Source of the DNA: Diphasiastrum complanatum
Lineage: Eukaryota; Streptophyta; Lycopodiopsida; Lycopodiales; Lycopodiaceae
Assembly: GCA_029204225.1 (NCBI GenBank)
Contig: CM055104.1
Coordinates: 25,869,285-25,933,284 of the forward strand
Direction: 5' to 3'
DNA length: 64,000 bases
This document shows, one piece after another, positions 1,150-53,410 of this stretch. A model generated the notes under the pieces. It saw nothing but the letters and a program-made list of their open reading frames with translations, was not told the origin of the DNA and did not search any database. Within the stretch, counting starts at the first letter, position 1. Each line of letters opens with the position of its first letter. The translations under genes and the position numbers were made by a program.

Positions 1150-2708
1150 AGCTTGATGCCAATATTGCAGTGGAGAGTGTTAACTTGGCAAAGGTGGAGC
1201 TATCAAAGGTGGAACTGTGGCAGTATGATGCTCTTATTGAGAATCATACTTGGGATCTTGTGGATCTTCCTCAAGGGAAGAAACCTCTTGATTGCAAGTG
1301 GGTGTTTAGATTGAAGTATAATTAAGATGGATCAATAAGCAAGCATAAAGCTAGGCTTGTTGCCAAAGGTTTTTTACAAACCAAAGGCATTGACTATGAT
1401 GAGACTTTTGCTCCTGTGGCTAAGCTTGTTACTATCAGGTTGATCATTAGTCTTGCTACAACCTTCAATTGGGAGCTATTCCAACTTGACTTCACAAATG
1501 CATTCCTCAATGGTTATTTGGAGGAAGAGATCTACATGAGGCAACCCGAGGGCTTCATCAAGGTAAAGCATGAAGGAAAGGTGTGTTTTTTGAAGAAGAG
1601 CCTTTATGGGCTCAAGCAAGCACCTAGAGCATGATACTCTAGGCTAAACTCTTTTCTCATTTCCATCAATTTTGTAATGAGTGCCTATGATCCATCATTG
1701 TATATAAGTTTTCATGATGGCATGATCATTATTCTTGTTTTGTATGTAGATGACATTATCTTGAGTGGTAATGATCTAGATGGAATTAGAGATGTAAAAA
1801 TTGCTTTAGCGAAAGAGTTTAAGATGGTAGATCTCGGCCTATTGAGCTTCATTCTTGGAATAGAGATTATTAGAGGATGTGATTTTAGCTTCATTTGTCA
1901 ATCTAAATATGCTACATCCATCCTAGATAGATTTGGAATGAAGAATTGTAAAGGCATTGAGACACCAATGGAGCAACATGTAAAAGCATCTATTGGTTGT
2001 GATGAAGCATCCTTTGAGGACATCACATTATATAGAAGGCTTATTGGCTCCTTGATCTATTTAGCTATAACTAGACCTGATCTTAGTTATAGTGTTGGAA
2101 AGTTAAGCCAATTCATGCAAAGTCCTCTAATTTCACATTGGAAGATGGCCAAAAGAGTTCTTAGATACATTTCATTCACTAAGAATTTTGGTATTTTGTA
2201 CAGAGGAACTCATCTTGGCTTAAGAGCCTATAGTGACTCGGATTTTGCAGGTGACAAAGTGGATATAAGATCAACAAGTGCATTTGCCACCTTTCTATGT
2301 GATGGAGTAGTATCATGGCTTTCCAAAAAGCAAGATACCATCTCCCTATCTTCCACAGAATCCGAATACAAGGCCTTGACATCAACATGCAAGGAGATCT
2401 TGTGGCTCAAAAGGCTATTGGTGGAGCTTCATGTCATGGAGGAGGAGATCCCTATCATCTATTGTGACAACCAATCAGCCCAATCACTTGCAACTAATCC
2501 TACATTCCATGCAAGGAGCAAACACATCGAAATTGCTCATCATTTCGTGAGGGAACAAGTGCAAGCTAAAGAGATCAAGCTCCAACACGTGCCATCATCA
2601 AGTTGCTTGGCTGATTTGTTTACTAAACCTTTACCTAAAGATTCATTTGTCAAGCTTAGATCTTCAATTGGAGTTATTGATAAAAGCATTGTGATCTCCA
2701 AGGCTTGA
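1150..2708 (+). pseudogene. copia reverse transcriptase and RNase H, broken
   Basis: Reverse transcriptase begins in another frame with a segment reading YDALIENHTWDLVDLPQGKK and continues through LDFTNAFLNGYLEEEIYM, KSLYGLKQAP and the catalytic LYVDDIIL. An in-frame stop lies near 1323 and a second near 1633, just after KQAPRA, where a Trp codon is expected. RNase H follows with AYSDSDFAGD, SLSSTESEYKA, YCDNQSAQSLA, HARSKHIEI and the C-terminal ADLFTKPLPK. The stretch 1677-2708 is one open frame and looks fairly young; the damage is concentrated upstream. Confidence 0.85.
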
Positions 2709-14339: not shown

Positions 14340-14930
14340 GTGAATGATGGTGATGATGGGCGTTCCATGTCTTGAAAGTGGAAAGTTTTGGAATAGCGAA
14401 ATAGCAAAGGCAGCTGCTACTTGCGAACTGGAAGAAAGCCGCAGGAAAACACCAGATTCGCGATGGATGTTGTCGACCAAGAGGACCCAGCTGAACTCCA
14501 GAGCAGGACTGAAAGTAAAATGTGAAGTTAATAAAGGTATTTTTTCCATCCAGTTTTCACTTGCACTGAATCCAGAGACTTCCTTACATTTTCCAGTAGA
14601 AAAAAGTTTTTATGCTTATTTCATTCTTGTCGAGCTCTGATGGGGCATCTGGTGCTACTCTGGCAAGCTTTGGAAATGCAATGCATTTTAAATATTTTAA
14701 ACAAGACAATTTTCAGAATTGCTTTGTCTATGTGCAAGGCAAACCTTGTTGCCTAGCTTGTTGTAACTTGGGCATTCTTTTCCATGGTGATTAAAAAGGT
14801 TGAGCTCATTGTTGGTGGCGCTGTGGCTATGGAGGACATCTAGTCCATAACAAACTTGAAGTTGTTTCAGCTGATAAGAAATTGAGATTGTTCAGATGGA
14901 ACTGAAGTGGTGAAGATTTATCTTACTACA
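14340..14930 (+). other. Possible 5' exons of the OSB-PPR gene
   Basis: Two stretches could be N-terminal exons. An ATG-initiated frame at 14344 could supply an organelle-targeting peptide. A segment near 14650-14755 reads FKQDNF...CFVYVQGK, reminiscent of the end of the OB-fold in OSB proteins, where a strand reads VYVSGxL. Splice sites here do not resolve into one open frame, so this remains a suggestion. An upstream exon ending in phase 0 before 14963 is required by the model of the downstream gene. Confidence 0.3.
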
Positions 14931-14962
14931 CAAAAAATGTGTATACTGACTGTGACATGCAG

Positions 14963-17900
14963 GCCAAAGAGAGCAAGTCGCAGAGCACTCTCTGCCGCAT
15001 TCCACTGGTCGATCTTTGGATGTTATACCCAACAAGGTGAAGCTTTTGCGAGTACATGAAACATTATTCTAGTGAGGGCTGGCTGAAGTTTTTAGTAGCA
15101 CGTTATAGAAGTGTTGATGTTGCAAACGAGATACTGGATATCAATCGGTACAATATTATGCTGAATCGATCACTATGCCATTTCTGACTACAAATTTATC
15201 AGCTGGTTGTAACTGGAGGCGTCATTGTGCGCTTAATGCACTTATCATGTACATTTTAGTGTTCAAGTCAAGATGTTGGTAGCAAGGGTGTAGGATAGTT
15301 GGACAAATTATCTTTCAAAGCTCTTTTTGATTTTGTGGTCCTGTTGATCCGTCATAAATATTTTAGTGGGAATGTGTATTCAGATCAATTCTCAAGAAGT
15401 TGGTTTCTCTCATAAAAGTTCCCAGGAGGTTCCACTGGAAGCTGGTCTATCTCTTTTTGGTATGTGTCAAGAGTTTTTTTGAGATTCATGTGCACACCTT
15501 TTTCCGCTGCTCCTTCCTAAATTCTAATATTTATGCAAGTTGAGCTTGGATCATTTCAAAGAATTGAATGCTCCCTGAAGGACTCATATTGCAAATTAAA
15601 GAATGAGGTAAAAATTAAGAAGCTTTTTTTGAAGTGTATGGGTTGTTGTATCCAGGAGAACTGGACCACATTGAGCAGCTTTGGTTGCAGTTCTTCGTAA
15701 ATCCCTTAGATTGGTGGGACAACAGACCTAACAAGGTGAGACCTTTTGGTTACTCGAATTAAAATTTAGAGACAGAAGCATGCACATTGTTGAGTTCTGT
15801 GTATTGGATTGTAAAAGGTTCTTTCAATTGATAGTTGCAGTACTGCTGCTCGGTGCATGTGCTACTCGAGTAAGTCAGGCAAATCAGCTAAATGGGGCAG
15901 CATCTCAAGAAATCCGTCATTTCCCTGATTTTAAGCATAAAATCACCAGGGAGGTTCTTTGGGAGGACAGCAGGTTGAATCCCCCTTGGGTGAAAGCCAA
16001 ATTGGCCAATGTTACTGGCTGCAGACAACAAGCTGGTATCTTGTCAAGCCTTGATTTCATGCTCCGATTTGGAATATTATTTCCTCCAGCAAAGCAAATC
16101 AAATGTCTGAGGCAGAATCCATCATGTTTCGTGCAGGAAAAGAAATCATGTTAGAGAAACTTTGGCGGAAGTTTTTCTCCAATCCTTCACAATGGTGGGA
16201 TCACAGATTTGACAAGGTGAATATGCTACCACCGTATTGAGTACTTTAACCTGATTTTTTGTTTCAAACAAATTCCTCTAGAGGGGTTTTCTTGAATCTG
16301 CTGACTTTTGTTCCTCGTTGCTAGGCAAATGTAAGGTATCCTGATTTCAAGCACAAAGAGTCCCAGGAGTCCCTATGGATTGATGGCAGATTAACACCAA
16401 AATGGGTTGAAGCAGAGCTGGCTGCTCTGAGTCCAGGAACATTGCAAAGGAGTGTTTTTTCTTGGAATATAAAACTATCAAAGTTTGTGAAGAACAGGCA
16501 GTACACTCAGGCTTTAGGGTTATATCAAAGAATGCAAACGGAAGGTGTTCTCCCTGACAAGTTAACATTTGTGAGGGTCCTAAATGCCTGTGCCGGTGCA
16601 GCAGACCTTCTGGAAGGGAGGCATGTCCACGCACGGGCCAATCAAAGCAACTACCAGGAACATATGATTGTGGGTAATTGCTTGATTGATATGTATGGAA
16701 AATGTGGAAGCATTGAAGATGCTTGCCGAGTGTTTGATAGTATGCAAACACATGATACGGTCTCTTGGAGTGTGCTGATTCGGGCATACATGAGGTGTGG
16801 CCATGGAGAGAAGGGATTGATTTTATTCCAGCAGATGCAAAGGGAAAACTTTGAGCCGGATATTGTCACCTTTGTGTCCATCCTTAACGCATGTGCTAAT
16901 ATAGAAGCACTTGAGGAGGGCAGGAATATCCATTGTCAAGTAATTCAGAAGGGTTATGAGGCAGATTTTTTTGTGGTGAATTGTCTACTTGATATGTATG
17001 CAAAGAGTGGAAGCATAGAGGATGCTTGTAAGGTCTTCAACAGTATGTCAGTCCAGAACGAAGTTGCTTGGAGTTCCATGATTGGTGGTTATCTAAAGTG
17101 CGGACAGGGTCAAAAAGCTTTGGAACTGTTTGGAGTGATGCAACAAGAAGGGGTGGAGCCAGATAGTGTCACTTTCATTGTTGTTCTCAATGCATGTGCC
17201 AGCGTAGCAGCGCTTGAAGAAGGCAGACGGGTCCATGCAGAGGTTGTTCAAAGAGGCTGGGAGTCAGAAATAGTTGTGGACAATTGCCTGATTGATATGT
17301 ATGTGAAGTGTGGGAGCATAGAGGATGCTTGTAAAGTTTTCAACGCCATGTCCAGGCACACGGTAATATCTTGGAATGCAATGATTGGAGGCTATGCCAA
17401 ATGCGGGCGGGGTACATCAGCATTGGATTTATTCAGACGAATGCAGTTGGAGCAGGCACGTCCAGACAATGTTACATTTGTGGCTGCTCTTAATTCTTGT
17501 GCTAGCATGTTATCACTTGAAGAAGGAAGGCATATTCATAATTCAATCATGCAAACAGAATACAGAACCAATTTAGTCGTACAGAATAGCTTGATTGACA
17601 TGTACAGTAAATGTGGGAACATGATAGAAGCTTGCAGGGTTTTTAACAGTATGGCTGTACATGATGCTGTTTGTTGGAGTGCCTTGATTGGGGGATATGT
17701 AAAGTCTGGAGAAGGAATGAATGCCTTAGAAGCATTCAGACAAATGGAGCTTGAATGCATTGAGCCTGATATGGTCACTTTTGTGGGTGTCCTCAATGCA
17801 TGTGCTTGTATTGCAGCTCTGGAAGAGGGCAAGCGGGTTCATGCAAAGGTAATCCAGAGTGGATATGAGTCAAATATTATGGTAGGAAATGCTCTAATTG

Positions 17901-18811
17901 ACATGTATGTCAAATGTGATAGCATAGACGAGGCTTTCACAGTGCTCAGCAGAATGCCACAACATGATACAGTATCATGGAACGCTCTGATTGCGGGTTG
18001 TGTGAAATGTGGGCAGGCAGAGAAAGCATTAGAGCTTTTTCAACAAATGCAACAGAATCAGGTGGAAGCAGATAGCGTCACTTTTGTAGGCGTTCTCACT
18101 GCCTGTTCTAGCTTAGCTGCACTAGATGAGGGTAGGTGTGTGCATGAGCAGGCAATTGCGTGTGGCTGTGATTCAGATATTTTTGTGGCCAATTGCCTGA
18201 TTGATATGTATGCTAAATGTGGAAGCATAGAAGAGGCAAGCAATGTATTCAATGGTATGCAGGGACGCGATGTGATTAGCTGGAATACTATGATCATGGC
18301 TTATGCTATGCATGGGCTTGGTGAGGCAGCTCTCCAGCTTTTTGCACACGGAGATGTAATGATGGACAAGGGTACTTTTGTTTGTCTTCTCACAGCATTA
18401 AGCCACGCAGGCTTAGTAGATGAAGGGGAGTACTACTTTGAGTCCATTTGTGCAATTTACTGTATTTCCATTGCAGTGGAGCATTGCAGCTGCATGATTG
18501 ACCTTCTTGGCCGGGCTGGAAGATTAGATGAGGCAGAGAACTTGATCAACAAGATGCCATGCCAACCAACTCTTTCGGTATGGACAGCCTTACTAAGTGC
18601 TTGCCGAGTCCATGACAACTTAGAGATTGGGGAACGTGCAGCAAAGCAACTTCTTAACTTACACCCTGATAATACCTCGGGGTATGTGATGCTATCCAAC
18701 ATGTATGCTGCTGCTGGAAAGTGGGATAGTAAAGGTGAAGTTGAGCACCTAAGGACAAACAGACAAGCATTCAAATCACAAGCAAGGACCTGGATTGATG
18801 CAAATAACTAA
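14963..18811 (+). CDS. OSB-type PDF-motif protein fused to a PLS-class PPR protein (5' partial)
   Basis: Six exons form one frame: 14963-15037, 15384-15459, 15656-15735, 15879-16035, 16137-16216 and 16325-18811 (2955 nt, 984 aa visible). All introns are GT-AG with matching phases. Exons 3-4 encode one OSB PDF motif (LWLQFFVNPLDWWDNRPNK, then FPDFKHKITREVLW), and exon 5 with the start of exon 6 encodes a second (LWRKFFSNPSQWWDHR, then YPDFKHKESQESLW). Each motif is split at the same place. In exon 6 the frame runs on without a break into seven PPR units of about 101 aa (P-L-S triplets, DMYxKCGSIEDACKVF) and an E-type tail ending RTWIDANN. There is no DYW domain. The first in-frame ATG of the PPR exon is at 16532, inside the first repeat, so translation must start in the OSB part. 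By family, OSB proteins bind ssDNA and PPR proteins bind RNA, both in organelles. The 5' end is unresolved. Confidence 0.87.
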
Positions 18812-19630
18812 TTACATTCAATCTTTTAAGTTCTCCAGAGCAACATGGATATTTTATTTATATGAAGATGAGAATATTATTTTGTTTTTCAGTCTGGCTT
18901 GTAATACAGCTGACACAATGTTTAGCATTATTTAGAGAGAGAAGATAGAGAGTTCAATTTTGCAAAAAAGCAAGAAGCCCGTGCCTCAGGTTTTCCCCCG
19001 CCTCCACTGTTGCCACATTTTTAAGAATTCTGTATCGTTCCAAAATCTTGACTAACTTTGATTTCCTTATGGTTTACTAAAGAAATCAATTACTGCGAGT
19101 GCTACTAAAATTCATTCTTTCTTTTTACGAAATTGGGTGTTCTTGCTGTAAAAATCGAGTATCCAAGTTTCCCTTTCTTCAATCTGCATTCTATCTCTTA
19201 ACCACAGGTATTGCAAGACATCTACTAGGTTCACAAGCATTGTCTGGCTAGCAACCGGCCCCTAGCAACCTACCATACTTCCAGAATCTAGAGATGCTGG
19301 ATATGAAGTTTATGCTCCACCAATATATTATATACGTTTGTGTTGCTTCAATGGTGGTACTCATCATTCAGTAGTTGATTGGCTTGTGGTCTTTTAGGAC
19401 ATTTTTAATTAGTTTAGATTTGAAGTTTCCAAAGTATCTTAGCATTTTAATCTAATAGGTGCATTGCCAGCAAAAGCATTTGTTGTGAGAATGCTTTTAA
19501 TTGATTTTATTATTATTTAAAACTTTCCAATTATGATTTTGTTTGACCATCTTGCTGAAAAAGTAAAGAAGATAGAGATCTCATTGAATGCAGTTATCTC
19601 TAAAAGCTGCGATTGACTACAAACTTGTGG
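18812..19630. other. 3' flank of the OSB-PPR gene, no gene
   Basis: This stretch probably holds the 3' UTR (for example ATATTTTATTTATATG near 18850) and then AT-rich intergenic DNA. No frame of interest is present. Confidence 0.5.
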
Positions 19631-19639
19631 TCTCTCACG

Positions 19640-19890
19640 GTTTAGGGTTTAGGGTACCCAACCCAATGGACCATAAGGAGCCCACCCCAAGGGACCACAA
19701 GGAGCCTTCTTGCAGTCCAGACCACCGCAAGGGACTGCAAGAAGGCTCCTTGCGGTCCCTTGTGATGGCCCAAGGACCACATCGGACCGCAAGGAGCCTC
19801 CTTGTAGTCCCTTGCGGTGGGATGGACCGCAAGAACGCCCTTTGTGGTCCCTTGGGCCACCTCAAAGGACCACCAGGAGCCCAAGTGTAA
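19640..19890. repeat. Degenerate AAGGGACCGCAAGGAGCC repeats with a 30-bp hairpin
   Basis: The word GGGACCRCAAGGAGCC and its reverse complement alternate through this stretch. The strongest structure pairs 19689-19718 with 19732-19761: 30-bp arms with one mismatch and a 13-nt loop. Several overlapping frames here are repeat artefacts. Confidence 0.85.
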
Positions 19891-20075
19891 AAAATAATAA
19901 TAAATTGACTGAATCACTTGGCATGTCATCTCCTTCAGCTCTTGGTGGTCCTCGGGCTCCTTGGGCTCCTTGGTTGAATCATACATGTGAGCACCTCTTC
20001 ATCACATTGGGAACCGTATATTGGGACCATATTTTGCAAGAAGGTTGAAATGTTACAATTTTTTTTTTTGCCCTA

Positions 20076-20121
20076 GCAGCCCACCACCATAGCATGCCAG
20101 CGTGTTATGGTGGTGGGCTGC
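20076..20121. repeat. Perfect 16-bp inverted repeat
   Basis: GCAGCCCACCACCATA at 20076-20091 is exactly complementary to 20106-20121, with a 14-nt loop. It is flanked by T and A homopolymers. Confidence 0.9.
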
Positions 20122-20136
20122 AAAAAAAAAAAAATT

Positions 20137-20174
20137 CTGAATCACTTGGCATGCCGGCGTGCCAAGTGATTCAG
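20137..20174. repeat. Perfect 15-bp inverted repeat
   Basis: CTGAATCACTTGGCA at 20137-20151 pairs with 20160-20174 around an 8-nt loop. The arm sequence also occurs at about 19910-19923 (ACTGAATCACTTGGCATG), so the cluster shares sequence across some 270 bp. Confidence 0.9.
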
Positions 20175-20209
20175 TCAAAAAAAAAAATATTTTTCGTAGC
20201 ACAAGGCTA

Positions 20210-22185
20210 AAAAAGTTTTTTAACTTCAAAAAAAAATTATTTTGGAATTTCATTATGGGATTTTCAACTATGTGCCAAACCACAATTTTTATTAATAAAC
20301 ATTCAAGTAGTGGCACAAAAAAGATAGCACACCTCATGGCAAGAAAGAACCTTTCAAAACTCGCAAAAAATTTACTCACAAAATGCCAAGCCCCCAAGGG
20401 TTGATCTAAAACCTAGACTATCACTTAGACATATTTGATGGTAACATCACAATCAAGCTAGTATAATGAAATCACCTAAAGTTTTGTAGACTACCCAAAG
20501 ATCCACATCATTTGACCTGCTTGTTACATCATCGATCCACCTCAACCACGTTAAATCTATGTGTCATATTTAATCTATCAAGAGAAGATAATTTGCATGA
20601 AGTGCCACATCAACAAGGGATAGCAGAAGGTGCCAATGATTCACAACCAAGAGATGGACCACAATTCCAATTATTATGCACTTTTATTTTTAATGCCAGG
20701 ATTTGGATTAATCTTAACTTTACCATAAGCTTCGCTCTTGTTTGGGCTTACTTTTGTTTAACTTCCCTTTCGGGGTGTATACATCTTTTTCATCAATGTA
20801 CCTACTACTTTTTCCTATGAATAAATACACCAGAGTGTTTCTTCGTTATCAAATGAAGCCTTTGTTATGATTTGTTATGGCTCCAAAATACAGATACAAT
20901 GTAGACATGGCCTTAGGCTTTTAATTTAGTTAAGGTGTTAATCCTTATGCCTATTCTTTGTTCATTTTCAATCAAACTTGGTGGTTTCCATTCTTTATTA
21001 TGACCCTTAGCAAGCTAGGCTCCAAAATAAGTATCTCATTTGAGCCTTGCCATTTATAATGCTCATTTATAACTTAGCTTTTTGCAACATAAATATTTAC
21101 ATTTCAAGTACAAACATGTGATATCAAGCTCTTGTGAGACACTAAACATGACACTTCTTAAATGAAGGTTACCGTAGCTTCCCAAAAGAATATGGCTATG
21201 ATAGCTCTATATCAAATATTCAAGTATGACCATTGCCTATAACAACAAGAAGCAGCGTAACACTAATTGTAGGAAGAATCCTCATTCCAATGTCATTTTG
21301 GCTAGAAAATTGAAATACCAGCTCACTTGAATTTGTTTTTGAAAATTAAATTTATTCAAGTGGTGAAAATTTTCAATTCTCTCATGAAAACCTAAAATTA
21401 TCAATGAAACAGTGACAACTTATATCCAAATTGATTTATGTTAGGCTACAACACCCAGTAGCTTCTTACATGAGACAACCAGCATGACAATAGAAGTATT
21501 TTAATAAAAAAATATTTCCCAAAATTAAGGTACCAACCAACTTGAAAAAAAAAACATGAACTAAAATGACCCCTGTTATCGCATCCAAATTATTGGAATA
21601 GAATATTCACATATCTAGGTTCACATCAAGATAAATCTGCATTCAATTTACTATTTGCATGTGACACAATGTCTACCACCACTGATTAGATAGATATGAG
21701 TGCCATATGACCAATAAATTGCCATTTGATTTAGAATTTTGGCTTAGTGTTCATGCCATTACATTTTGCAATATATTCCATTCCTTTGATACAGATAAGT
21801 AGCATAGTAACAATTTGAAAAATACCGTGTAGTAGCCAAGTTGGAAAAGAGTTGCTACTGCATCGACTTTGACACGGTCTTCAATCCCCTACTGCGAATC
21901 AGGGATGTCTAGGAGCCTTTTGGCACAGATGCCTTATGTAAGTGCAATTTTCTTATATGGAGTTCAAGCACGAGAGAGATTTGGATTGACTGTTTGAATG
22001 TCAAAATATATCCTTAAGTTGGACCCACAGGGATGTTCACAATGAAGTAATCTGTAAATTTGTCCATAAAGCTCTCAGATGTCCTTATGTGCACTCTTGA
22101 GCCTGGTGAAGAACCACCAAACACATTTGATGAATTTTAAAAAGTGAACTCATAAGCCCCACATGGACCATAGAAGTTGACTTTG
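20210..22185. other. Intergenic, no gene recognised
   Basis: AT-rich sequence between the two converging host genes. A stretch near 21900-22010 (FLYGVQARE-like in one frame) resembles the end of LINE reverse transcriptases but is too short and damaged to call. Confidence 0.45.
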
Positions 22186-22188
22186 CAA

Positions 22189-24229
22189 TCACTTTTTAAT
22201 CATGCAATCGAGAGCTTGGATGATGCTTGTAATCCACCTGTAACATGGGAGTGTTAACAAAGTTGGGCATGTGGGACTCTTTCAGCATGATGCAATAACA
22301 ATTCTCTTCACAAACCACATTGCTAACAACTGAGCGACCACAAATCCAACAGACCATTTTTGCAAGAAAAGAAGGGCACGTGGGAAAGAAAAGTTAACAA
22401 CGCACCCATCAAGCCCAGGATCTTCTGGATAAAAAACTCTCTGCAGACCTGCTTGCCTAGCTGCAGCAGCCGATGTACTGCCTATGCATGCAGCAGCTCC
22501 ATCCCATCCTCTGTCTCCGGTCATTAGCTTAACCCATGCCCTGCGAGTTGAATAATGAAAAATTGATTTGGTGTAAAAGGAAAATGAAAACTGAAGTTTC
22601 CCCACGTTCTGCTGTAAGAGATTCTTTCTGAGTGGACCATGAGAACACTTTGGCAAACATTGTACTTAAGGCTTCAGACATAAATTGCATAGACAGAAAA
22701 TTTACATCATATAATTCTTTGTGTCTGCAACTTATGACTGAAACCTTTCCTTGCGGCACAATTTTATTGCCAGAGGGAGGTGGGGTCCCTCAAATTCTAC
22801 TGACAATTGAGTGAAATGCTTTTGAAAACAAGCTTTGAATATATCTCTTTATCAACCTTAAAATACACCCAAATTCGTTTCTCTTAAGATGGAGTGATTT
22901 CAATGGACAAAAGAAACTGGAGGGAGTCTTAACTTGACCGCAGTAGGAGAAGCAAAAGTAACCACAGGTACGGAAGCTGCTGCAACCACTGCAGCTCTAT
23001 CCAGTTCTTTTACAGAATCCTGACCGGTCACCATCCCACAGCATTAGATTGGCATGTAAAGGTATTTGGTCTTAATAGTTTAGCAAATAGGCATTTTGAG
23101 CGTTAATCAAAATATGAACAAGTAATAACTTCTAGAACTTGAAACTAAAAACAGTTTGGACCTTTTGGCGGCAAAATTGTACTATTTGAAAGATCATCCT
23201 GAAAGTGCACATTCAAATAGAGAATATACAGTGGAATAGGTGTTCAGACGTGTAACGTTGAACCCACGCACAGTTAAACCACTCTCTGCAGCCACAAACA
23301 CCCGTATGATTATAAAGAAGTGTGCAAAGTCTGTGATAAGTCTGATGAGAATACTGCACTCTATGAAAGTATAGGTTTAACAAGTCAAGTAGGTATGCAA
23401 GTCATAATCAGACCTTAGATGAATCATGAATGATTTCCAGGCCTCAAAGAAGCCAACCAAGTTGAGAGACCTACCCTCAGAGTATCATAGAGTAACAAGA
23501 AAGGCCAAACAGTGGAGCAAAGAATGAATTTTGCTTGGCAGTAGCAGTTAAGGCCAAAGGTATATATGGTCACGGAAGCTATTGCAGCTCCTTAAGCAAC
23601 TATTCAGCATTTATTAAGTTATTAGCACCTGTTTTCATCAGTGTTTGAGGAAAAGCTGCAAACACCCTTACTATGCAGAAACCTGCTTTCAAATATGATT
23701 AAAGGTTATAGTCAAACTTCAAAAAAAATTGAAAGAAATGAAGGTTCCTGATTAAAAGAAATGCTCTAAACACTATAAGATTCATTACAAATTGGATTGT
23801 ATAAGAAAAATACTAGACAGGCATTCATTTAACGTCGATAATGTAGACAATTTGATACATATCCTAATTAGGAAGTTTAGACCATATCAAGATTTCCTTG
23901 TGGGCCTTCAAAAATCCAAGCAAACAGTTGATCAAAATATCCATCACATCCAGAAGCATTTCTATTGTGAATGTTATATGACCTAAAAATTCATCGAAGT
24001 TTAAGGAATTGATGAAGAAACATTTTCTTAATCAACTATATGAACGCAACACTTTCAGAAAATGATCTCTCACAACTCCGAACTACCACCACCTGGAAAC
24101 GACGAGATTGAAAATTGACTAAACTCAGCTTACCAATTTCATTACTAGCTTTGATGGATGCTGGATACAGGACTGTCTCGCCATTTGAAGGGCCTCTGGG
24201 GAGCTCTTCTGCTAGACACTTGGCGTTTG
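22189..24229 (-). CDS. UROS: UROS exons 5-9 (C-terminal half)
   Basis: Exons 24229-24134, 23285-23230, 23019-22934, 22540-22406 and 22237-22189 are joined by introns of 848, 210, 393 and 168 bp. The last exon is only 49 nt and ends in AAG TGA. Exon 8 could be read through its donor (frame open to 22282), but splicing at GATGG|GTGCGT restores the family C-terminus GWxxSIxxAL, so read-through is not favoured. The acceptor of exon 5 is taken at the second AG (CCACAG|CAAACG) because it keeps the usual spacing after PSK. Confidence 0.9.
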
Positions 24230-25628
24230 CTGTGGCATTTTCTAGTAAACATTAGCATGTGAGATTTGCATCTCTTAGTCTACATCTACAATAGCAAAAT
24301 AAATGACCATATCACAAAACTTATGGTGGCAATACACAATATCACATGATAACAGTTACTGACACTGTAAAAGTATGCAGTTCAAAAGACATTACCGAAC
24401 TATACACTGTCATGTTACTTGTCAGTTCATTAGTCTAACTTGTCCATCTTTTCAATAATTAGCAATGGACTCCTCAAAAAAATGTTAGGTATGCAATTTC
24501 ACGTGATTCTGTCTTTTTTCCTTTGTACAACCAAGCAGAACACTGTACAGAGCTTCATATGCAACTAATCTTCAACTGCAGCTTATTCCGCACAAGCAAC
24601 TTCTAGATTTTCGTCCTGCAGCATGGCCACCACTGGGTCTACAGCATAAATAAAGTTCCTCTATAAAGAGAGATGATGGCCAGTGCTTATTCAAGCTGGG
24701 AAAAGTTGAATCAGCTCAGAGATACAAGGCCTTATGACGATGACCTCTATATCCTTCTCATGTCTTCTAAAAGGGACCCACTCCTACATTAGGTGGTACA
24801 TTCACAGGCTATATAGTCAGCAAGTTTGGATAGGCCCACCGGGGGTCAAATCAGACTTCTATTGCAAAAACTTCCTTGAGACAGTAGATACAAGGGGTCT
24901 ATTCTACCACATTACTTGGAAGTGGACTTGTCTCGCAGTCCCCTGACGCAGTTTTGGATGTTGTCACATTAGCTTCAACTATGTACATTGGGAGAGGCAG
25001 AGACAAAGAAGTACTCTTATCTTCTAATGCACTATTTTATGAGATCAGAAGGAGGTATCACTGTCTATTCGAAGACCCGACTTCACTCCTTGGCCTTGTT
25101 AGGACAAAGAAGAGTCACCTTGATGTTACGAGAGATAATTTGGCTTGAACAGGACATATAACAATCTCTTCAGTCTTGGGTTCTGGTGCAGTCTCATATC
25201 ACATCAATCTTTTCCAAATGATGAACATGGACGGAGGGCACAGTCTCAAAATGTCCCCACTAGGCATTGAGACCAACGATGTCGATGACAGCCACCACAG
25301 CCCTTGGCTCCACAAACCTCAAGCAGTACACACATACCACGCAGGCATATACCCCGCTAACACTACTATGACACTTTTTAGATGTGATGATAGATTTCTT
25401 TTGTGTTTTAAACGATTGACCACACATGGATCTAGTACTTCCTATTTCGTATGTCATTTTCACACGTATGTAGTCAGACAACTTGACGGACTCTTAAATA
25501 GACGACATACCTAGTTTTTATTTATGGTTTTGGAAACGCGTTGCTCTCCCTTGAACAACATATTGGATATGTATTTCAGTTATATATACCATATTGGCAC
25601 TAAAAAGACATCAACCAATCAGACGCGG

Positions 25629-25669
<41 letters not shown>

Positions 25670-28600
25670 TTCATGATAGCCCTGTCCGTCCGCCCTGCCT
25701 TGCCTTATGGCTCCTCGTGGGTCTGTCCCCCCTTGTGCCACAGCCCCTCTTCCTCCACGGCAGACCACCCGCTCCCCACTCCCCTCATCCCCCCCCCCCT
25801 CGACCCCCCTCGCTGCTGTCTACAGAACTGCCTGCAGACCTACCCCCCCCCCCCCCCCTTGCTGCCTACAGATCTACCCTTCCCCTCGCTGCCTATTGAC
25901 CTGTCTTCCCCCTCGCTGGAACACCCTTTTTCTTCCCCACTCCCATTCTCTTCCTCCTCTTCTTCTCTCTCTTCTGCTGCTCCTTCCTATCTTTCGCCTT
26001 CTTCTTCCTCTGCTTCTGCCTCTTCCTCGTCTTCATCGATCTCCAATCCTATCGATCTGGCCATCCCTACCGGCCTCCTTCCTACCCCTATTTCCCAAGA
26101 ACCCACAGCCCCTAAAGCACCCATTTACATCACCCATCCCATACACTCCCTCTAAATCAACCGAACTATTTTCCTCCTGGGAAGCTGACCAAATGAAAGC
26201 CGATTTCCAGCTTTCGAAACAGGAACTTACACAACTGAAAGGAATAGTGGTCTCCTTACTCAAGGAAAAGACTGTGTTGCAATCCAAAGTCACTTCATTG
26301 GAGCAGGTGATCAACACTAAGCAGGTTGCAGCCTCGGAATCGACCACCACCATGATACGAGAACTTGAGAATAAAATTGAGCAGCATAACGATTCATGGG
26401 CAACGGTCTTGAAGAAAGGCACCAAGCCTAGTGCCCCCATTTCCTCAATCATCTCAGCCACTATTTCAGAAAAGCGATCAAGGGAGCAAAAGACCCATAA
26501 CATTAGGGTTCGTGGGATACCGGATACACAGGATGCCATTGCCGAGGCTTTGAGATTTCTCGAGACCACTCTAGGACATGTGACAGATGGGCTAGATACA
26601 ACTTGGAGGACCACCAGAGATGCAGCTACACTGGTCCTTCGCTTCACATCCTTAGGCAGCCGCACAGAGGCTTTACGCTGCAGAGCCCAGCTACGTGGCA
26701 CTACCATATATATGGATGACGATCTTACCTACATCCAGGTTGAGGAGAGGCGCAAAGCCTTCCAGGTGGCTCGAGAGACTGGTAGACAGGTCATATATTG
26801 AGATGGTCATATACGGTTTGTTGCTGGCACCCCTAGCAGTTCACAAAGCTAGGAATTCGGGGCCCTCGGGATTGGGAGCATCCCGGGGCCCCATCCATAC
26901 CATCTTCAAATTGGGGTATGGAACTGTGATGGCATCCACTCATCTTCTACAGCAGGTGATTTGATTGACTTTATCACTGGTCGAGACCTACTGTTTTCAT
27001 GGAGACTCATGAGAGCCAGGTGCACGGTTTACCCACCTTCCCGGGATACAGTGGGATTCAGTATACAGATTTGAGACTAGATCAGCCAGTGGCCGTGGTT
27101 CGGGAGGAGTGGCTTGTCTATACAGAGAGTCCCTTCATCAGATGTTTGAGTTTGTCAGGCATGATGAGCATGCACGGTATATTTGGCTTCGTATCACAGG
27201 ACGAGCGATTGGTTTGGACAGGGATATCTTCATTGCTGCCTGCTATTTTCCTCCAGAGTCCTCCTCCTTTGTTGAGGGTGTTGGGTCACCTTATTTGGAC
27301 CTTTCAGTGGATATCATCAGATTTGCAAAGCGAGGACATATTTTCCTCACTGGGGATTTTAATGCCCGGACAGCTTCACGACAGACAGAGTTCCATGATG
27401 CTACAGATCAGATGCGAGTCCATGCGATAGTGACAGCTTGGAGATCACCAGGTTTTCTGATGATGGACCGGGACCTATTACTTCATATGGTGAGTACCTG
27501 TTACAGTTTGGTGAGGCACATGAGTTAGCCATTTATAATGGCCTGCCTCACTGGCCTGATTCTGGCAGCTATACTTGTCACCCTCACAGTGGCGGTCATA
27601 GTGTGGTTGATTACCTCATGGGGTCACCATCATCCATCCCTCTCATTCATAGATTCCATATCTCATACAAGCCGCCTTCCTCACCACATGTCTCCACACT
27701 GCTGCTACATGTCTCCACACCACATGTCTCCACACTTTCCCCTCTAAACCTCATAAACACAAACTAGGGCATCCCCAATCATCCCGACCTTTCCACCCAC
27801 CATGGTATGACGCGGAATGCCGATCCCTTCACCACTCTATCACACATGCTCGTTTCCACGCCCGCCATCTCCTCCGCTCCTCACGGCAATTGTACAATCG
27901 TACACTCTGTCACAAAAAACCTGCCTATGATGACTCCGAAGGTAACCGTCTTGTGAACCTCCTTCTCAAGTCCTCCTCTGGTGTCTTTTGGGGTGAGTTT
28001 ATCCCTCGTGCCCCAACCCCCTCTACTGGACGATTTACATATCTGGACCGACTATGCTACCCAACTTTACACTATACCCACTGATACGCCCATCTCCATC
28101 TCTCCTCGACCTTCAGACTTCACCTTTTTCACCCCTGACCTGGTTCGGGCAGCAATCAAAAAGCTGAAAACCCACCGCACCAGGGACATTGAAGACCTTG
28201 AATCTGAGCTATTGATTCACGCCTCCGATACTCTTTCCCCTACCCTATCCACTCTCCTTAACCATGCCGTTGTTGAGGGCTTCCCATCCTCTTGGTGCAC
28301 CAACATCAATCATCCTATCCATAAAAATGGTGATCCCATGGTACCTGGTAATTACCGCACTATTATGATTGGACATGTTCTCGCGAAGCTATATGGCGCC
28401 ATCCTCCAGTCTGCAGTTAGCTCAGAGGCAGAGTCCAGGAGATTACATGCTTTGGGTCAGGCAGGGTTCCGTGCTCATTATTCCACTACAAATCACATAT
28501 TCACACTTCGAACCCTCATTGAGGAAGCTAGACACAGGAGAGAAAAGGTTTACTGTTGTTTTGTGGACTTCAGGAAAGCCTTTGATTCTGTCCCATGCTC

Positions 28601-31600
28601 CTTACTCATCCAAAGACTCCGAGACTTGGGTTTCTCTACAGATATTATCCTAGCTGTCATGGCTCTCTGTGAGAGGGTTTTGGGTTGCTTCCGTCATGGT
28701 AGTGGCATCTCTGAGCAGATCTGGAGTACTATTGGGGTTAAGCAGGGATGCTCTCTCTCACCAGTTCTCCTTGGATTATGTATTGACGAGCTAGAGCAGG
28801 TCATCTCTCAGTGTGGTGGGGACGGTTGTCGGCTTGGGGACATTCTGATTGCCATCTTTCTCTATGCGGATGATGTGAACTAGTCTCCCATACCAGAGAG
28901 GGATTACAGAGACAGTTGGACTGTGTACACACCTTTTGTACTCAATGGGGTTTAGGGGTGAACCTCTCGAAGACCAAAGTTATGGTCTTCAATACCTCTC
29001 TGGCCTTCATGCAGCGCCAGGAGCTTACCTTTGACGGACAGCCCCTAGAGGTGGTCTTTTCATACACTTACCTGGGTGTGCTCTTCTCTGGTCCTACCTT
29101 AAGTATGAGACAGGCGGCTACTTCTAGACTTGGGAAGGGCCACTCTTCCCTAGTCCAGCTGGAGAGATTCTGCTTCCATAAGTCTATTCGAGATGCCCCG
29201 AGTAAGTGCAGACTGTTTGACACCATTGTCACCCCCTCACAATTGTATGCGGCAGAGATATGGTGTACAGGACTATCATCTTCACATTGGTCCAGCATTT
29301 CATGCCTACAGACCACCATGTTAGCTCGCATGATTCGAGCGAAGTCCTCGGTTCCACATGAGATCATCCTTGCGGAGTTTGCCACCCCCCCAATTCAGAT
29401 TGAGGCAGCCTTCCAGCTCGTCACGTACATCCAGAGAGCTCAAGCACTTCCTGATATAGAGCAACGGTATACGCGGATTGCACTCATGTCCTCTCATCAC
29501 CTTCAGACTCAGGGATACAGGCTATCATGGTTCTCTCAGGCATCACACTTCCTCATGGAAGTATTTGGTATCACTATCACTGATCTCCCTTTGGGTACAC
29601 ACCAGTACATTAGACGCTATTTATACAGAGCATATCTCGACCGTACTTGGCGACATCAGCTGGGGGTTAAGCCTGACTACTACCGGACTCACTTTCTAGA
29701 GCAGGATGCCACTGGTCTTCCAGTCTTACCTCGCTAATTGTCCTCTGGGCTATCACACGCTCTCCGTTTCACTTTGGGACAGTTTAGAGTCTCCTCCCGT
29801 CAGCTGGCTATTGAGACAGGTAGATTCCAGGGTACACCACATAGACTATGCCTGCTATGTCCCCTTCATGAGATAGAGTCCGAGGAGCATTTCATCTTCA
29901 GATGCCCCATATATTATGAGATTAGAGGGAGATATCACTGTCTATTCCGTGACATGCCTACTACACTCAGAGCACTGATTGGCTATGAGGACTCTCGTTG
30001 TGTCGCACTTATGCTACGAGAGATGGTCTTGCTGCGCCAGGATATGTACCAGTCAGCTAACCAGCCACATACTAGCTCTCAGGCTCAGATTACATCCTTC
30101 TTCACCAAGAGACGGACACGGTCTGATGACGATGACGATGACATACCACCTCACCGATGTCAGAGACAGTGTATCACTCATAGTCATGCTGCAGTTCACA
30201 CTTCACGCCATGTTACGAGAGCACACAGTTTTCACCCTCCTAGACGACGTCAGCGACGGTCCATGTTACCTCATGTTGCAGCTTGTATCACATCTTTCTT
30301 CAGCAGTAGCACTACATGATATTACTCTACTCCTGGCAGCTATATGGACAGTTGGCAATTTTTAGTTTATAGTTATGTTGTTCATTTCTCTTTTATGCAT
30401 AGGTTTTTCTTGGAGACGTCAATATACGCTCCCATGGTTTCATATACTTGACATGTACTCCATTTGGTCTTATATGCCTTTTGGCATGGAAAAGACATTA
30501 ATTATCCGTTTCACTTCCCTAGAGAGTCGCCGAGATGCTTTGTCGTGCAAAGCTAAGCTACGTGGTACCCCCATCTACATGGATGACAACCTCACATATA
30601 TCCAGGTAGAGGAGAGGCGTAAGGCCTTTCAGGAAGCCCGTGAGTCTGGCAGACGAGTCATTTATTGAGCTGGACGAGTGCGCTTTCTTGATAGCGCTCC
30701 TAGCAGCTCCCATTGCTAGGGATTTGGGGTGCCCGGGGTACAGCAGGGGACCTTGTTGATTTTATTACAGGCAGAGATATATTATTCTTCATGGAGACAC
30801 ACAAGAGCCCGGAGCGAGGACTTCCTTCTTTTCCTGGATATAGATGGGACTCAATATTCCGACGAGAGCCTAAATCTGCGAGTGGCCAAGGTTCAGGTGG
30901 GATCACCTGCCTGTACAGAGAGACTCTCCATTCGAGTATTGACTTCATCCGAAATGACGAGTAGGCCTGCTACATATGGACTCGCATCGTGGGTCAGGAT
31001 ATTGGTTTGGATAGAGATCTTTTTATTGCAGCATGTTACTTTCCACCAGAGTCCTCGTCTTTTGCTGAGGGTATTGGATCTCCATATCAGGACCTCTCAC
31101 TAGATATTATCAGATTCTCAAAGCAGGGGCATATTCTCCTCACAGGGGATTTTAATGCCTGGACATCTTCGAGACACCCCTTGACAGTGATATGCTTGGA
31201 GTTACCAGGACCTCCGCAGACAGTTTGGGACCTACTACTTCCTATGGTGAGCATTTACTGCAATTTGAAGAGGCACATGAGCTAGCCAATTATAATGGCT
31301 TACCCTGCTGGCCACATTCAGACCGTTATACATGCCACCCTCACAATGGAGGACATAGTGTCGTTGACTATCTCATGGGGTCACCATCCTTTGTACCCAT
31401 AGTCTCTGACTTCCACGTTTCCCCCCCCCACCCTTTCTGATCACTCATTTCTCTCCTTCGATATCCGCCACCTTCCACCCACTGATTCATCTACACTACC
31501 CATGCTTACCCGAGCACTCACGTACACATTTGATCCCATTTACATGCCATTGTACCGGCAGTCCTTGGCTTCACTTTTACACTCCTTTCCTCATCATAGT

Positions 31601-34454
31601 CCAGTTGACACCCGGGTTGCTTTTCTCACCACCTCTCTCCACACCGCTGCATCACTAACCCTCCCCACAAAAGCCCATTCCAAAAAGACTCGACGCACAC
31701 CTCGACCATTGCACCCTCCATTGTACGATACCGAATGTCGTTCTCTTCATTAGTTGGTAACCTATTCACGTATCCATGCTCCACATCTGCTTCGATCTTC
31801 CCGATGCTCCTACCATCATGTTCTCCGCCGTAAGAAGCGTTCCTATGATGATTCTGAAGGGAAACGTTTTATTGACCTTCTTTTTAGTTCTTCTTCGGGC
31901 GCTTTTTGGCGTGAGTTCACTCCTTGCTCTCCACCACCTCTCCTGGAGGACCTCCGCATTTGGACTGATTAGGCTACTAGCTTGTATACCGTCCCTACCG
32001 ACTCACCTATCTCTATATCTCCACGACCATCTAAGTTCTCCTTCTTCACATCTGACATGGTACTTGCAGCCATTAAGAAGATGAAGACCCACAAGGCCAG
32101 GGATATTGAAGACCTTGAGTTTGAACTCCTTTTCCATGCCTCTGACTTACTCACTCCCACTATAGCCACCCTTCTTAATTCCGCAGTTGTTTCCGGTTTC
32201 TCATCATCCTGGTGCACTAACATTATCCACCCCATCCATAAGAATGGTAACCCCATGATTCCGAGTAACTACCGTGCCATCATGATTGGGCATGTCCTGG
32301 CGAAACTATATGGTACTATACTTCAGTCTGTTGTGAGCTCAGAGGCGGAGACTAGGAGACTACATGCTATGGGTCAGGCAGGTTTTCGAGCCCATTATTC
32401 TACTGCAGATCACATCTTCACATTGCGGGCCTTGATTGAGGAGGCTAAGCACAGGAGAGAGAGGGTTTATTGTTGTTTTGTGGACTTTAGGAAAGCCTTT
32501 GATTTTGTTCCTCGCTCATTGCTCATCCAGAGACTCCGGGACCTCGGCTTCTCCACCGACATCGTTCTTGTTGTGATGGCATGAGCGTGTCCTGGGATGT
32601 TTCCGGCATAGCAGTGGCATATCCGATCACATTTGGAGCACTATTGGGTGAAGCAGGGTTGCTCCCTCTCACTAGTCCTCTTTGGTGGCTTGTATATTGA
32701 TGAGTTGGAGAGAGTCATTACACAGTGTGGTGGTGCTGGTTGTAGGCTTGGGGACATCTTGATTGCTATCCTCCTTTATGCCGATGATGAGGTATTGGTC
32801 TCACCGACCAGAGAGGGTCTACATCGATAGTTGGATTGCTTGCATGAGTTTTGCACCAAATGGGACCTAGGGGTGAACATTGGGAAGACCAAGGTTATGG
32901 TCTTCAACACTTCTCGAGCATTCATGCAGCGACAGGAGCTTACTTTAGGTGGACAGGTTCTAGAGGTGGTCCCTTCCTACACATACCTGGGGATCCTTTT
33001 CTCAGGTCCTACTTTTAGCATGAGGCAGGTCGCTACAACTCGACTAGGGAAGGGACATGCCACCCTTGTTCAGCTAGAGCGATTTTGTTTCCGGAAGTCC
33101 ATCCAGGATGCTCGCAATAAGTGTCACCTCTTTGATACCAGTGTCACCCCCACGGCTCTATATGCGGCAGAGGCATGGTGTACAAGTCTCCCCTCTTCAC
33201 ACTGGGCCAGTCTTTCACGATTATAGACCACGATGCTAGCTCGGTTTATTCGAGCGAAGCCTTCTGTTTCACATGAGATTCTCCTGGCCGAGTTTGCAGT
33301 TCCACCTATATAGATAGAGGCAGCTCTTCAGCTCATTACCTATATATAGAGGATAGAGGCATTACTAGAGATAGACAGACGATACATGCAGATTGCACTA
33401 TCCTCCTCACAGCGTCTTCATGATCAGGGCTACATGTTATCATGGTTCTCTCAGGCATCTCACCTCCTACTTGAGTCATTTGGTATCTCCATCACAGAGC
33501 TTCGCTCAGACACCCATTAGTATATCGGACGATTCCTCTATCGCGCATATCTAGAGCGTAACCAGTTAGGGGTTAAGCCAGCTTTCTACTAGACCCATTT
33601 CTTGGAGTTGGATGCATCAGAGACCCGGTCATGCCACGCTACTTGGATTCGGGACTATCACATTGCCTCAGATTCACACTAGGAAAGCTCAGGGTGTCTT
33701 CTCATCAACTAGCTATTGAGACTGGGAGGTTCCATGGTATTCCTAGAGAGGAGCGGATTTGCTAGTTATGATCTCTAGGTGAGGTGGAGTCTGAGGAGCA
33801 CTTTATCTTTAGATGCCCTGTATACAATGAGATCAAAGGGCGATCTCATTGCATGTTTCGAGACATGCCTACCACTCTATGCTCTCTCATAGCCTATGAG
33901 GACCCACGATGTTCATACTACGGAGAGATTTAAACGGGACACCCCAGCATTTTACCTCATAGCCATTGATTACTTCATTCTTTACTAGGCGGAGATCACG
34001 TGATTTAGTTCCTGAGGATGACGATTATGATGACGACAAGGATGATAGCCACTCACATGCTCATCGAGATCAAAGACAGTGTACTTCCCACCATCGCGTT
34101 ACTACCAAGATCACCAGACATCCTACGCAGAGACATACTACTACACATGCTCATGTTCACAGACGACGCCGGCAGGCTCCAGTGCTTTCTAATGTTGTGG
34201 CTCGCATTACATCTTTTTACAACATCAGCACAGCAGTAGCAGCAGCACAGTCTTGACATCTTGACATAGATACATATGATTATTATGCACACACACTCTC
34301 GAATACGTGTCTATTTTAGTTTGTACTAGATGTTTTCTTTATTACAGTTTTGGAGACGTTTTATACGCTCCCATGGTTACCACATACTTGACATGTACGT
34401 CATTAGTCTTATATGCCTTTTGGCATGGAAAAAGACATTGATAAAGCTTTCTTT

Positions 34455-40500: not shown

Positions 40501-43500
40501 AACTGGAATTTTCCGGAACAGCAGGTCTGAGAATTTGGGTAAAAGAGCTGAGAGGGTTCCTCTTCGTATTTTCTTTGGAAGTACAGTCCTCAGAAACAGC
40601 TAAGTCATCTTTCCCTTCCCTTGTACAGTTGTAAATGAGTCTTTCTGGCTTTTTTTTCAGAAGTTAAGGTACCTCTCTTTCAGTTCTGAAAATGACCACT
40701 CCTCAGGGACCTGATCAACCCCCGGAGAGAGGCATCGACGAACTTGAAACAGAAGCCTTGGCTTACAGTAAAGGGAAAGAACCTATGGAAATGGAAGAAC
40801 GGGAACAGTTCGCCGAAGAACTCGACGAATTGGTTACCAAGGAGCAGTTTCTCCACTTGGTAACAGAAGTGGATGAACTGAAGTTGGCATTAGCCAATTT
40901 CAAGTCCAGTGTGGATGACTCGTTCGCTGAACTCAAAGGCTTGATTTTGAGTTCCGCAAAAGGAAGCCTGCCCTCCACTTCTCAGTTGTCCCCTTCTCCA
41001 CTTCCATCAGTTTCGGGTGAGACTCTGCGGTCTCACCCAGTGTCTTTAAAGATTTAAAGCCTCCTACTTTTATTGGGGAAGAGAAGGATAGAAATGCAGA
41101 TATTCTACAAACCTTCCTCAGCAAATGGAAGAACATTCATGCTCTTAAACAGACCCCTGACCATTTGCAAGCAATTGAGGCCAGTCTTTCCTTAGGGCCC
41201 ATGGCCTATAAGTGGTGGTAAAATCTCCAGGAGACTGGGCGGACTCCCCGGTCATGGAAAGCCTTTGAAGAAGCTCTCCTAAGAGAATTCCTACCAGAGA
41301 ATGAACTTGATAGAGCCTGGGAAGCCTGGGAAAGAACAGTAATGGACAAGTCCCTAATCCAATATATCTCGTAGTACCGAGAGGCAATTTAAAAATTGAA
41401 AATATGGATGATTATCAGAAAATTAGAGGGTTTGTCCGTGGCCTCAAAGATGAATATAAAGTAGAGGTCCAAAGAAACTCGCCTACTACCCTTGAACAAG
41501 CTCTCAGATATGCTCAAATCTATGATGATTCAGTGGGTAGGAAGAGGGCGAGACAGCAGCCCCTTTCTGAGCAGCCTCCTCGGAAAGACTTTCAATTTGA
41601 AAAGAAATTTTTAAAAAGAAAGAAAGAAGATAAAATTAAAGGTAAAGCTCCTCAGAAACGCCCTTCACTCATATAGCCCTTAAAACCAGAAGATTTAGAG
41701 AAAGCCAAACAAGAACGTTTGCGCTTTGTGTGTATGGGCAAGGGACACACAGTTAGACAGTGTCCCAAGGGGCCTTTCACTAAGAAAGATAAAAGAGATA
41801 AAAAACAAGTTCATCTTGTTCAGATTGTAAGTTTCCCCAGTGACTCGGCAGCTTCCGAGATCAAAGTGTATCATGAAGATCATGAACACTGTTGCCTGCT
41901 GACCTCTGCAATGCTAGCGAGACCCTTCAGCTTTGGGCCGCATGACCTAGTACGTATGCATGGGAAAGTTGGTAACCAGTCAGTTAGAGTTATGGTTGAT
42001 GATGGGGCAACCCATAATTTCATCAACTACACCCTGGTTAAAAAACTTAAACTACCAGAAGTACCTAGTCAGCATAGGTACATAGTTTCACTAGCTAAGG
42101 GTGAAGATAAGAAAATCTGGGAAACTATGGTAAGTAATTTGAATCTTGGTATTCAAGGGTACCAAGATGAAATAAACTTTCAAATAATGCACCTAGATCG
42201 CACAGATATTGTTCTCGGGAGAGATTGGCTCTACAGTTTAGGACCTTCCCTCCACAAAACTATCAAGAGAACACCCTTAGCTTTCAGCATAAAGGCCGAG
42301 AGATCCAGTTGCATGGAGAGCATGATGTTCCCAACAGTCCTATGGTCTGCAGTTCAAAGCTTTGTCAGCTAATCGGAGACGACGACCATCAGGTATTCTT
42401 ATGTGACTTTCAGTTTATTCCTGAAGTTTCTATTTCCAGTTCTTTACAGCAGAAAATCAGTAAATTAGAAACTTTATTGTCTAAATTTAAAGATGTTTTT
42501 CCTGAAGATTTGCCACATGGTTTGCCACCTAGCAGAGAGGTAGATCATGTAATAAACCTAGTACCAGGTACAGCACTTGTTTCTAAACCTCCGTATCGGG
42601 TCAGCCGAACAGAGGATGAAGAAATAACTAGGCAGTTAACAGATTATCTTGGGAAAGGCCAAATTCAGACCAGTAGTTCACCATGGGCCTCACCAGTCCT
42701 TTTGGCGAAAAAGAAAGAGGGGTCTATGCGTCTTTGCATAGATTACAAAGCCCTCAATAAAGTCACAATTAAGAATAAATATCCTATGCCTCGAGTAGAC
42801 GAGTTGTTTAATCAGCTCGACGGGGCTAAGTTTTTCAGTAAAATAGACCTCGGATCGGGATATCATCAAGTCCGTATAAAATCGGAAGAGTCCCGAAAAC
42901 AGCTTTTAGGACTCGTCACGGTCATTATGAGTTTAAGGTGATGCCATTTGGGCTCACAAATGCTCCAGCTACCTTTATGACTTTGTTGAACAGTGTCCTC
43001 AGACCATACTTGGGTAAGTTTGTAGTCGTATTTTTAGATGACATCCTCGTCTACAGCAAAACGAGGAAGGAGCATCTAAAACACCTCAGAAAGGTGTTTC
43101 GACTGCTCAGAAAGCATAAGCTTTATGCTAAAGAATCCAAGTGTGAATTTTTCGTAGAAGAAGTAGCATATTTGGGTCACACTATCTCGTCAGATGGGAT
43201 TATAATGGACCCGAATAAGGTTAAAGACATACTCAGTTGGCTAAGGCCTCAGAATATTTTGGAACTTCAGATCTTTCTTGGTTTGGCGGGATATTATAGA
43301 CGATTTGTCAAGGAATATGCTCAAATAGCAGTTCCCATGACAAATCTTCTTAAGGGGAAGGGAAAGGAGTTCATTTGGGAGTCCGCATAGCAGGAGATCT
43401 TTGATGCTCTCAAAACAGCCTTAGCCACAGCACCAGTTTTAAAAGTCGTTGACCCCAATCAGCCATTTGTGGTCGAAACAGATGCTAGCGACTTTTGCAA

Positions 43501-52021: not shown

Positions 52022-52219
52022 TTACCATAGGTTACTTTGACCCAAAAGGTCGAGAGTTGTGTAACCATGGTTTATTCACCTCCATTAGGCCTATTAAACT
52101 TAAGAGTTAGCTAACTTAGTATGTTTTTACATAGTAAGGACTCATGGGTCCACTAGGCCTAATTATGAAATTATGTACCCCAACTTGACATTTGGAGGTA
52201 CCTTATTTTTTTTTAAGTG
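52022..52219 (+). repeat. LTR fragment of the copia family at 49704
   Basis: CCATAGGTTACTTTGACCCA and the following sequence match the interior of the 49704-50150 LTR in the same orientation, through ACTTGACATTTGGAGGTACC. Both ends of the LTR are missing. It abuts the 3' end of the minus-strand gag ORF. Confidence 0.75.
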
Positions 52220-53211: not shown

Positions 53212-53410
53212 CCAAATCTACTCAAAACATTTGCAGCAAACAAAGAGCTGAAAGTAGGAGCACAAGATGTCTTTCAATCTGCAACCAAAGTGCCCAAAAG
53301 ATAATGGATAGATGGCTATCTTTCTGCACAAAAAAACCAGCTTCTTGAAAATTAGGTTAGCTTCGATTGAAGCTTACACTGAAACCCAATTAGGAAGCCA
53401 AATAGTGTGA

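Follow-up and report, generated by a model that had tools for sequence, protein, structure and literature searches.

The window, a 64,000-nucleotide stretch of Diphasiastrum complanatum DNA, belongs to contig C13 in an assembly of 1.74 Gb. Where the earlier note spoke of ferns, a chalcone-synthase-like protein of this genome (L057) points instead to a lycophyte: its best PDB matches are 3awj (Huperzia, 587 bits) and 6dx8 (Selaginella, 583), followed at a distance by 6dx7 (Physcomitrium, 537), 6dx9 (Equisetum, 514) and 7yj5 from the fern Stenoloma (489). It contains a gene in which two PDF motifs lie N-terminal to an array of PPR repeats (Table 1). The last four exons, the final one spanning 16325-18811, have GT-AG borders and matching phases (1, 0, 1, 0). 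The whole model has seven exons, also with GT-AG borders and in phase, and amounts to 1048 codons. An earlier note on this DNA had proposed an in-frame fusion of PDF and PPR parts with junctions at 16035/16137 and 16216/16325; splice borders and phases agree with both junctions, and the joined exons run in one frame into the PPR array. Exons 1-3 (14344-15459), among them the one at 14963 with which the note's region opens, show no similarity in 24 related loci and are tentative despite fitting phase and splice sites.

Table 1. Features of the PDF-PPR gene in the window. HMM scores are from a PDF model built from members within the D. complanatum genome, whose training set held the window motifs.
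Feature	Position	Strand	Evidence
Putative start exon with ATG, ending in phase 1	14344..14536	+	splice and phase fit; weak
Possible linker exon 2	14963..15036	+	splice and phase fit; weak
Possible linker exon 3	15384..15459	+	splice and phase fit; weak
5' half of PDF motif 1 (EQLW..WWDNR..NK)	15656..15735	+	splice sites; HMM 46.8 bits
3' half of PDF motif 1 (FPDFKHK..LW..PPWV) and linker	15879..16035	+	HMM 66.2 bits
5' half of PDF motif 2	16137..16216	+	HMM 51.3 bits; AAG/GT donor in 21/21 loci
3' half of PDF motif 2, start of last exon	16325..16435	+	HMM 71.9 bits; aligned to 18 paralogues without gaps
Short linker, seven PLS PPR triplets and partial E motif, without DYW	16436..18808	+	ORF, Pfam, regex
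Stop codon	18809-18811	+	ORF

Exons 4 and 5 encode PDF motif 1, and exons 6 and 7 encode PDF motif 2. Identity between the two motifs is 52%, and the intron interrupts both at one and the same residue pair (K/AN). Exon 7 is open for 828 codons, from the second half of PDF motif 2 (PDFKHK..LW..PKWV) through the linker into the PPR array, and its first in-frame ATG is codon 70, at 16532, as had been claimed. The PPR array would thus rely on the upstream exons, a single frame leading from the PDF motifs into it. The seven triplets announced in the earlier note can be read: a regular expression picked out 6 P motifs, 7 L motifs and 6 S motifs, and reading by eye supplied the P at the start of the array (VFSWN) and the S at its end.

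The tandem P, L and S motifs place the protein in the PLS class, as does a C-terminal E motif, which is partial (PF20431, E 4e-11, positions 1-46 of 63). The DYW deaminase domain of the DYW subgroup was not found in the gene by Pfam, and no DYW remnant was found behind it in 18001-30000. The gene ends near the point where DYW-bearing relatives begin the stretch that follows the E motif.

A domain search of the joined protein, proposed earlier as a check on both parts, returned PPR_2 (E 6e-120) and the partial E motif, and the PDF region gave no significant match in Pfam, NCBIfam or the PDB. From the motif as described in papers, we take this region to be the PDF motif of OSB proteins. The defining parts of an OSB protein are an SSB-like OB-fold and PDF motifs of about 50 residues, the latter present in one to three copies (PMC6963530, PMC4166229). 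The window gene resembles AtOSB1-4 in having such motifs, two of them, each split by an intron. In AtOSB1-4 the motifs are C-terminal to the SSB-like domain, whereas here they are N-terminal to a PPR array that follows in the same exon. No significant Pfam match to an OB-fold or SSB-like domain was found in the 258-residue N-terminal part, although a degenerate OB-fold or one on a more distant 5' exon could escape such a search. PF00436 has 12 matches at E<=1 in the whole genome, 4 of them above the family cut-off and none in the window. The designation 'OSB protein' in the earlier note is therefore kept for the motifs and dropped for the protein, which is called here a PDF-PPR protein. Elsewhere in the genome, weak SSB/OB-fold matches occur as two halves 14-20 kb apart at C13:6198153-6218671 (-) and C12:26103539-26118140 (-). 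These are possibly split OB-fold genes, and by eye no listed PDF place is found there.

The junction of PDF motif and PPR repeat is repeated widely in the genome. With a 65-residue junction query, many of the candidates scored (the best 150 of 507) cover both parts in one open frame. With an 82-residue junction consensus, for which the best 150 of 2370 candidates were scored, 82 rows have E values of 8e-39 to 3e-12; in 81 of these the match continues across the junction as far as the PPR repeat. The odd one, at C18:22817777, ends soon after the junction and holds a stop. Below these rows there is a gap; the next have E >=5e-9 and mostly cover the PDF part alone or a PPR repeat alone. Internal stop codons are present at 2 of the 81 places. 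Many PPR and PDF places occur as pairs of equal score, some 0.1-0.5 Mb apart and some on other or small contigs (for example, C11:17781149 and C11:18232743; C12:40308154 and C12:40553875; C1:66416964 and C12:22096795). The pairs are either unmerged haplotypes or recent duplications, and the number of separate genes is therefore lower than 81.

As the junction is spanned at 81 places with such E values, it is not a product of chance. It is extremely improbable that the PDF and PPR exons belong to separate transcripts or are brought together by an assembly break: the joining is read from genomic DNA alone, but it recurs on many contigs, and the splice sites are conserved in 21 of 21 loci. The assembly break near the junction that had been named as a possible refutation is accordingly set aside.

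Twenty further loci of this type, termed class I, were fetched and compared with the window gene. An exon with the PDF 5' half was found by the HMM upstream of the last exon in all 20. A second PDF motif further upstream scores well in L033 and L037 and is degraded in L030 and L032. The intron that splits the motif (AAG/GT...AG/) is in phase 0 and is 85-143 bases long in 21/21 loci, the window included. Its unspliced reading holds a stop in every locus except L043, where the intron length shifts the frame. The junction alignment is gapless in the 19 aligned members (19/19). The tree built from the 21 members has a star-like shape; the median length of its end branches is 0.44 changes per column, and 3 of its 18 inner branches are well supported. 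The common intron and gapless junction across class I speak for one fusion event that would have been followed by expansion. The suggestion that the last exon of an OSB gene captured a single PPR retrocopy does not hold for a recent event, given the 81 junction places and the star-like tree; the family is large, has junction, linker and intron in common, and has nearly saturated synonymous divergence. One locus, L042, differs from the near-identical L041 in that its frame stops at 334 rather than 725 codons and its PDF 5' half reads DHI for DHR; it looks like a decaying copy.

A second class of genes has PDF motifs upstream of the PPR part that are joined to it through a putative intron. Four class II stretches were read (L053-L056), and each contains two or three PDF 3' halves, some weak or degraded (22-24 bits in L054 and L055). 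Three such halves in a row are seen in L053 and L056. The last PDF 3' half ends in QSGxGLRS or a similar sequence. An intron before the PPR exon is read by eye, from a change of frame in L054 and L056 and from intervening stops in L053; L055 stays open across the putative intron. L053, the sole class II gene read to its end, has a full E motif and a DYW deaminase domain (E 6e-45).

A search with the class II consensus gave E <= 1.1e-19 for all of the best 150 of 516 candidates, and such matches thus number at least 150. At least 64 of the 150 are followed within 5 kb by a PPR or DYW place; the other 86 have none among the matches listed, and this counts against the explanation preferred below. 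When PDF rows are pooled, the matches listed form 274 clusters, and contigs C1-C23 account for 233 of these. The count is inflated by unmerged duplicates and deflated by the restriction to best matches, and a PPR exon was shown for a minority of the clusters. In viral contigs, 38 pattern matches were obtained, none of which was confirmed as a relative.

Selection on the family was estimated from pooled pairs, as the closest pairs are uninformative: only two near-identical pairs exist among the 21 members, with zero changes in the 3' PDF half. Pooled without the near copies L035 and L042, and reflecting old selection rather than the present state or activity of the window gene, the values for 19 members (171 pairs) are pS 0.685, pN 0.224 and pN/pS 0.33 for the 3' PDF half, 0.599, 0.333 and 0.55 for the linker, and 0.755, 0.302 and 0.40 for PPR 1; those for the 5' PDF half, from 18 members with L039 (missed by the regular expression) also omitted, are 0.677, 0.159 and 0.23. 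For pairs that include the window gene, the ratios are 0.29 (3' PDF half), 0.45 (linker), 0.35 (PPR 1) and 0.19 (5' half). In the PDF motif, synonymous change has nearly reached saturation, yet the protein sequence is conserved. The ratios indicate that the PDF motif is at least as constrained as the adjoining PPR, and the linker less so.

These values bear on whether the PDF exons mainly supply a start codon, a promoter and a targeting signal, with the motif itself a passenger. The late ATG of exon 7 is in keeping with this, and in 9 of 21 loci, the window included, the PDF-PPR exon has no Met before codon 61; both PDF halves are, however, under purifying selection (pN/pS 0.23-0.33), and this and the two or three PDF 3' halves in all four class II stretches, some of them degraded, make it very unlikely. 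The motif may alternatively have become a protein-protein or folding element, for dimerisation, for capping the PPR solenoid or for recruiting a deaminase in trans, and may no longer bind nucleic acid. Motif, linker and first repeat align gaplessly in all aligned members, which fits a packed cap, but the charged and aromatic residues of the signature (WWD..R..PDFKHK..LW) are conserved, and although this is not proof of binding, loss of binding seems rather improbable.

The family is linked to DYW domains by position. Among the best 150 of 472 DYW places (PF14432), at least 82 are preceded within 5 kb by a PDF place in the same orientation; the count is also 82 at 8 kb, and on contigs C1-C23 alone it is 69 of 119. 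In control counts, 1 PDF place was found on the opposite strand and 0 downstream. A count with fewer PDF queries gave 70 of 150, with 0 in both controls. The other 68 of the 150 have no PDF match among the matches listed, and this counts against the explanation preferred below. A DYW-type end is present in 7 of the 20 fetched class I loci, although that of L029 is in a frame other than the main one, and a listed DYW place lies behind at least 25 of the 81 class I junctions. Among the matches listed, a PDF place precedes 39 of the 122 PPR rows tested. The lone opposite-strand match, picked by eye, appears to be the PDF place C4:31773031 (+) near the DYW place C4:31776450 (-); this PDF place may belong to a neighbouring gene.

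Architecture, recurrence, common intron, constraint on the PDF motif and DYW-bearing relatives together define a large and old PDF-PPR family within this genome. Its members most likely act in the editing or processing of organellar RNA and would grip single strands through their N-terminus, a mechanism that is inferred. For the window gene itself, we give roughly even weight to a presumably organellar PLS-class PPR protein whose two N-terminal PDF motifs would hold single-stranded nucleic acid beside the RNA chosen by the array. PLS proteins serve as specificity factors in editing, the PPR array picking the site (PMC10226603). The array of the window protein would select an organellar RNA site, and the PDF pair in front of it would grip single-stranded nucleic acid without regard to sequence. 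The target of the pair could be RNA on the 5' side of the PPR footprint, or single-stranded DNA, either of the template under transcription or in the transcription bubble. Such a grip would raise affinity or keep the factor close to transcripts as they emerge. Relatives with a DYW domain would deaminate C to U, and the window protein, which has none, would depend on a deaminase supplied in trans or simply bind RNA. A protein of this kind may unite ssDNA and RNA activities in one polypeptide, as put forward in the earlier note.

Two properties of OSB proteins are relevant here. In AtOSB1, ssDNA binding requires no more than the PDF motif (PMC6963530), and recombinant AtOSB1 and AtOSB2 prefer ssDNA over dsDNA or RNA (PMC4166229). 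The latter preference speaks against a plain RNA clamp. It also favours a different arrangement, in which the PDF motifs stay off RNA and tether the PPR protein to organellar DNA, in the nucleoid or at the transcription bubble, so that editing or processing would be co-transcriptional; the description of OSBs with mitochondrial DNA agrees with this (PMC6963530). Single PPR-DYW proteins, however, are reported to edit in bacteria with nothing added (PMC10226603), and a DNA tether of this kind is considered unlikely, though it deserves more weight than a role for the motif as passenger or protein contact.

Plant editing factors are portrayed as having three parts: a targeting peptide, the PPR array and, at the C-terminus, a catalytic region. 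The window gene shares with the PLS-class factors of the E and DYW subgroups its P-L-S triplets and E motif and, in many relatives, the DYW domain. The N-terminus of PLS-class factors is presented as an unstructured targeting peptide, whereas that of the window gene bears PDF motifs; the lack of a deaminase of its own in the PPR part recalls split editing factors such as CRR4 with DYW1, which differ from the window protein in that it has PDF motifs (PMC10226603).

A PPR array fused to a DNA-acting domain has a counterpart in mitochondrial RNA polymerase, in which the DNA-acting part is unrelated to that of the window gene and the order is reversed. To our knowledge, the polymerase with PPR does not form a large family. 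The likeness lies in the N-terminal PPR of the yeast and metazoan enzyme (PMC6963530), and in the available part of that source PPR is brought in for this polymerase only. No description of PDF-PPR proteins was found in the open literature; most subscription papers and preprints fall outside this scope, and an earlier description is possible.

If the preferred reading of a single-strand grip holds, a constrained N-terminal nucleic-acid-binding motif ahead of at least 82 of the 150 best DYW places would constitute a new module of the editing machinery. It would be relevant to the question of how a plant with a very large set of editing factors directs each to its proper transcript, and PDF-PPR genes would link organellar DNA maintenance to RNA editing. 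The combination may also suit engineered PPR tools. Perhaps, and this is put forward as a tentative extension, the OSB motif left its OB-fold partner in the lycophyte lineage and became a standard N-terminal editing module in hundreds of PPR genes, coupling editing to the single strands of the genome being transcribed. A review reports the loss of OSB in pteridophytes and gives no OSB in its table for a species that is presumably Selaginella (PMC4166229); given this claim, the PDF-PPR family bears on the fate of the PDF motif in lycophytes.

The remainder of the window contains mobile element remains and simple repeats. Copia-type retrotransposon ORFs (RVT_2, SH3_retrovirus, Retrotran_gag_2) are found at 1635-2705 (+), 47444-49063 (+) and 52216-53217 (-). 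An RVT_1 reverse transcriptase ORF of non-LTR appearance is present at 27957-28880 (+), and a similar one was seen by eye at 31973-32584 (+). At 41677-43387 (+), aspartyl protease and RVT_1 matches lie in overlapping ORFs, and the region looks like a degraded Ty3/gypsy-like element. Repeats of units resembling 'gaccgcaaggagcc' occupy approximately 19630-20000 and are open in several frames on both strands.
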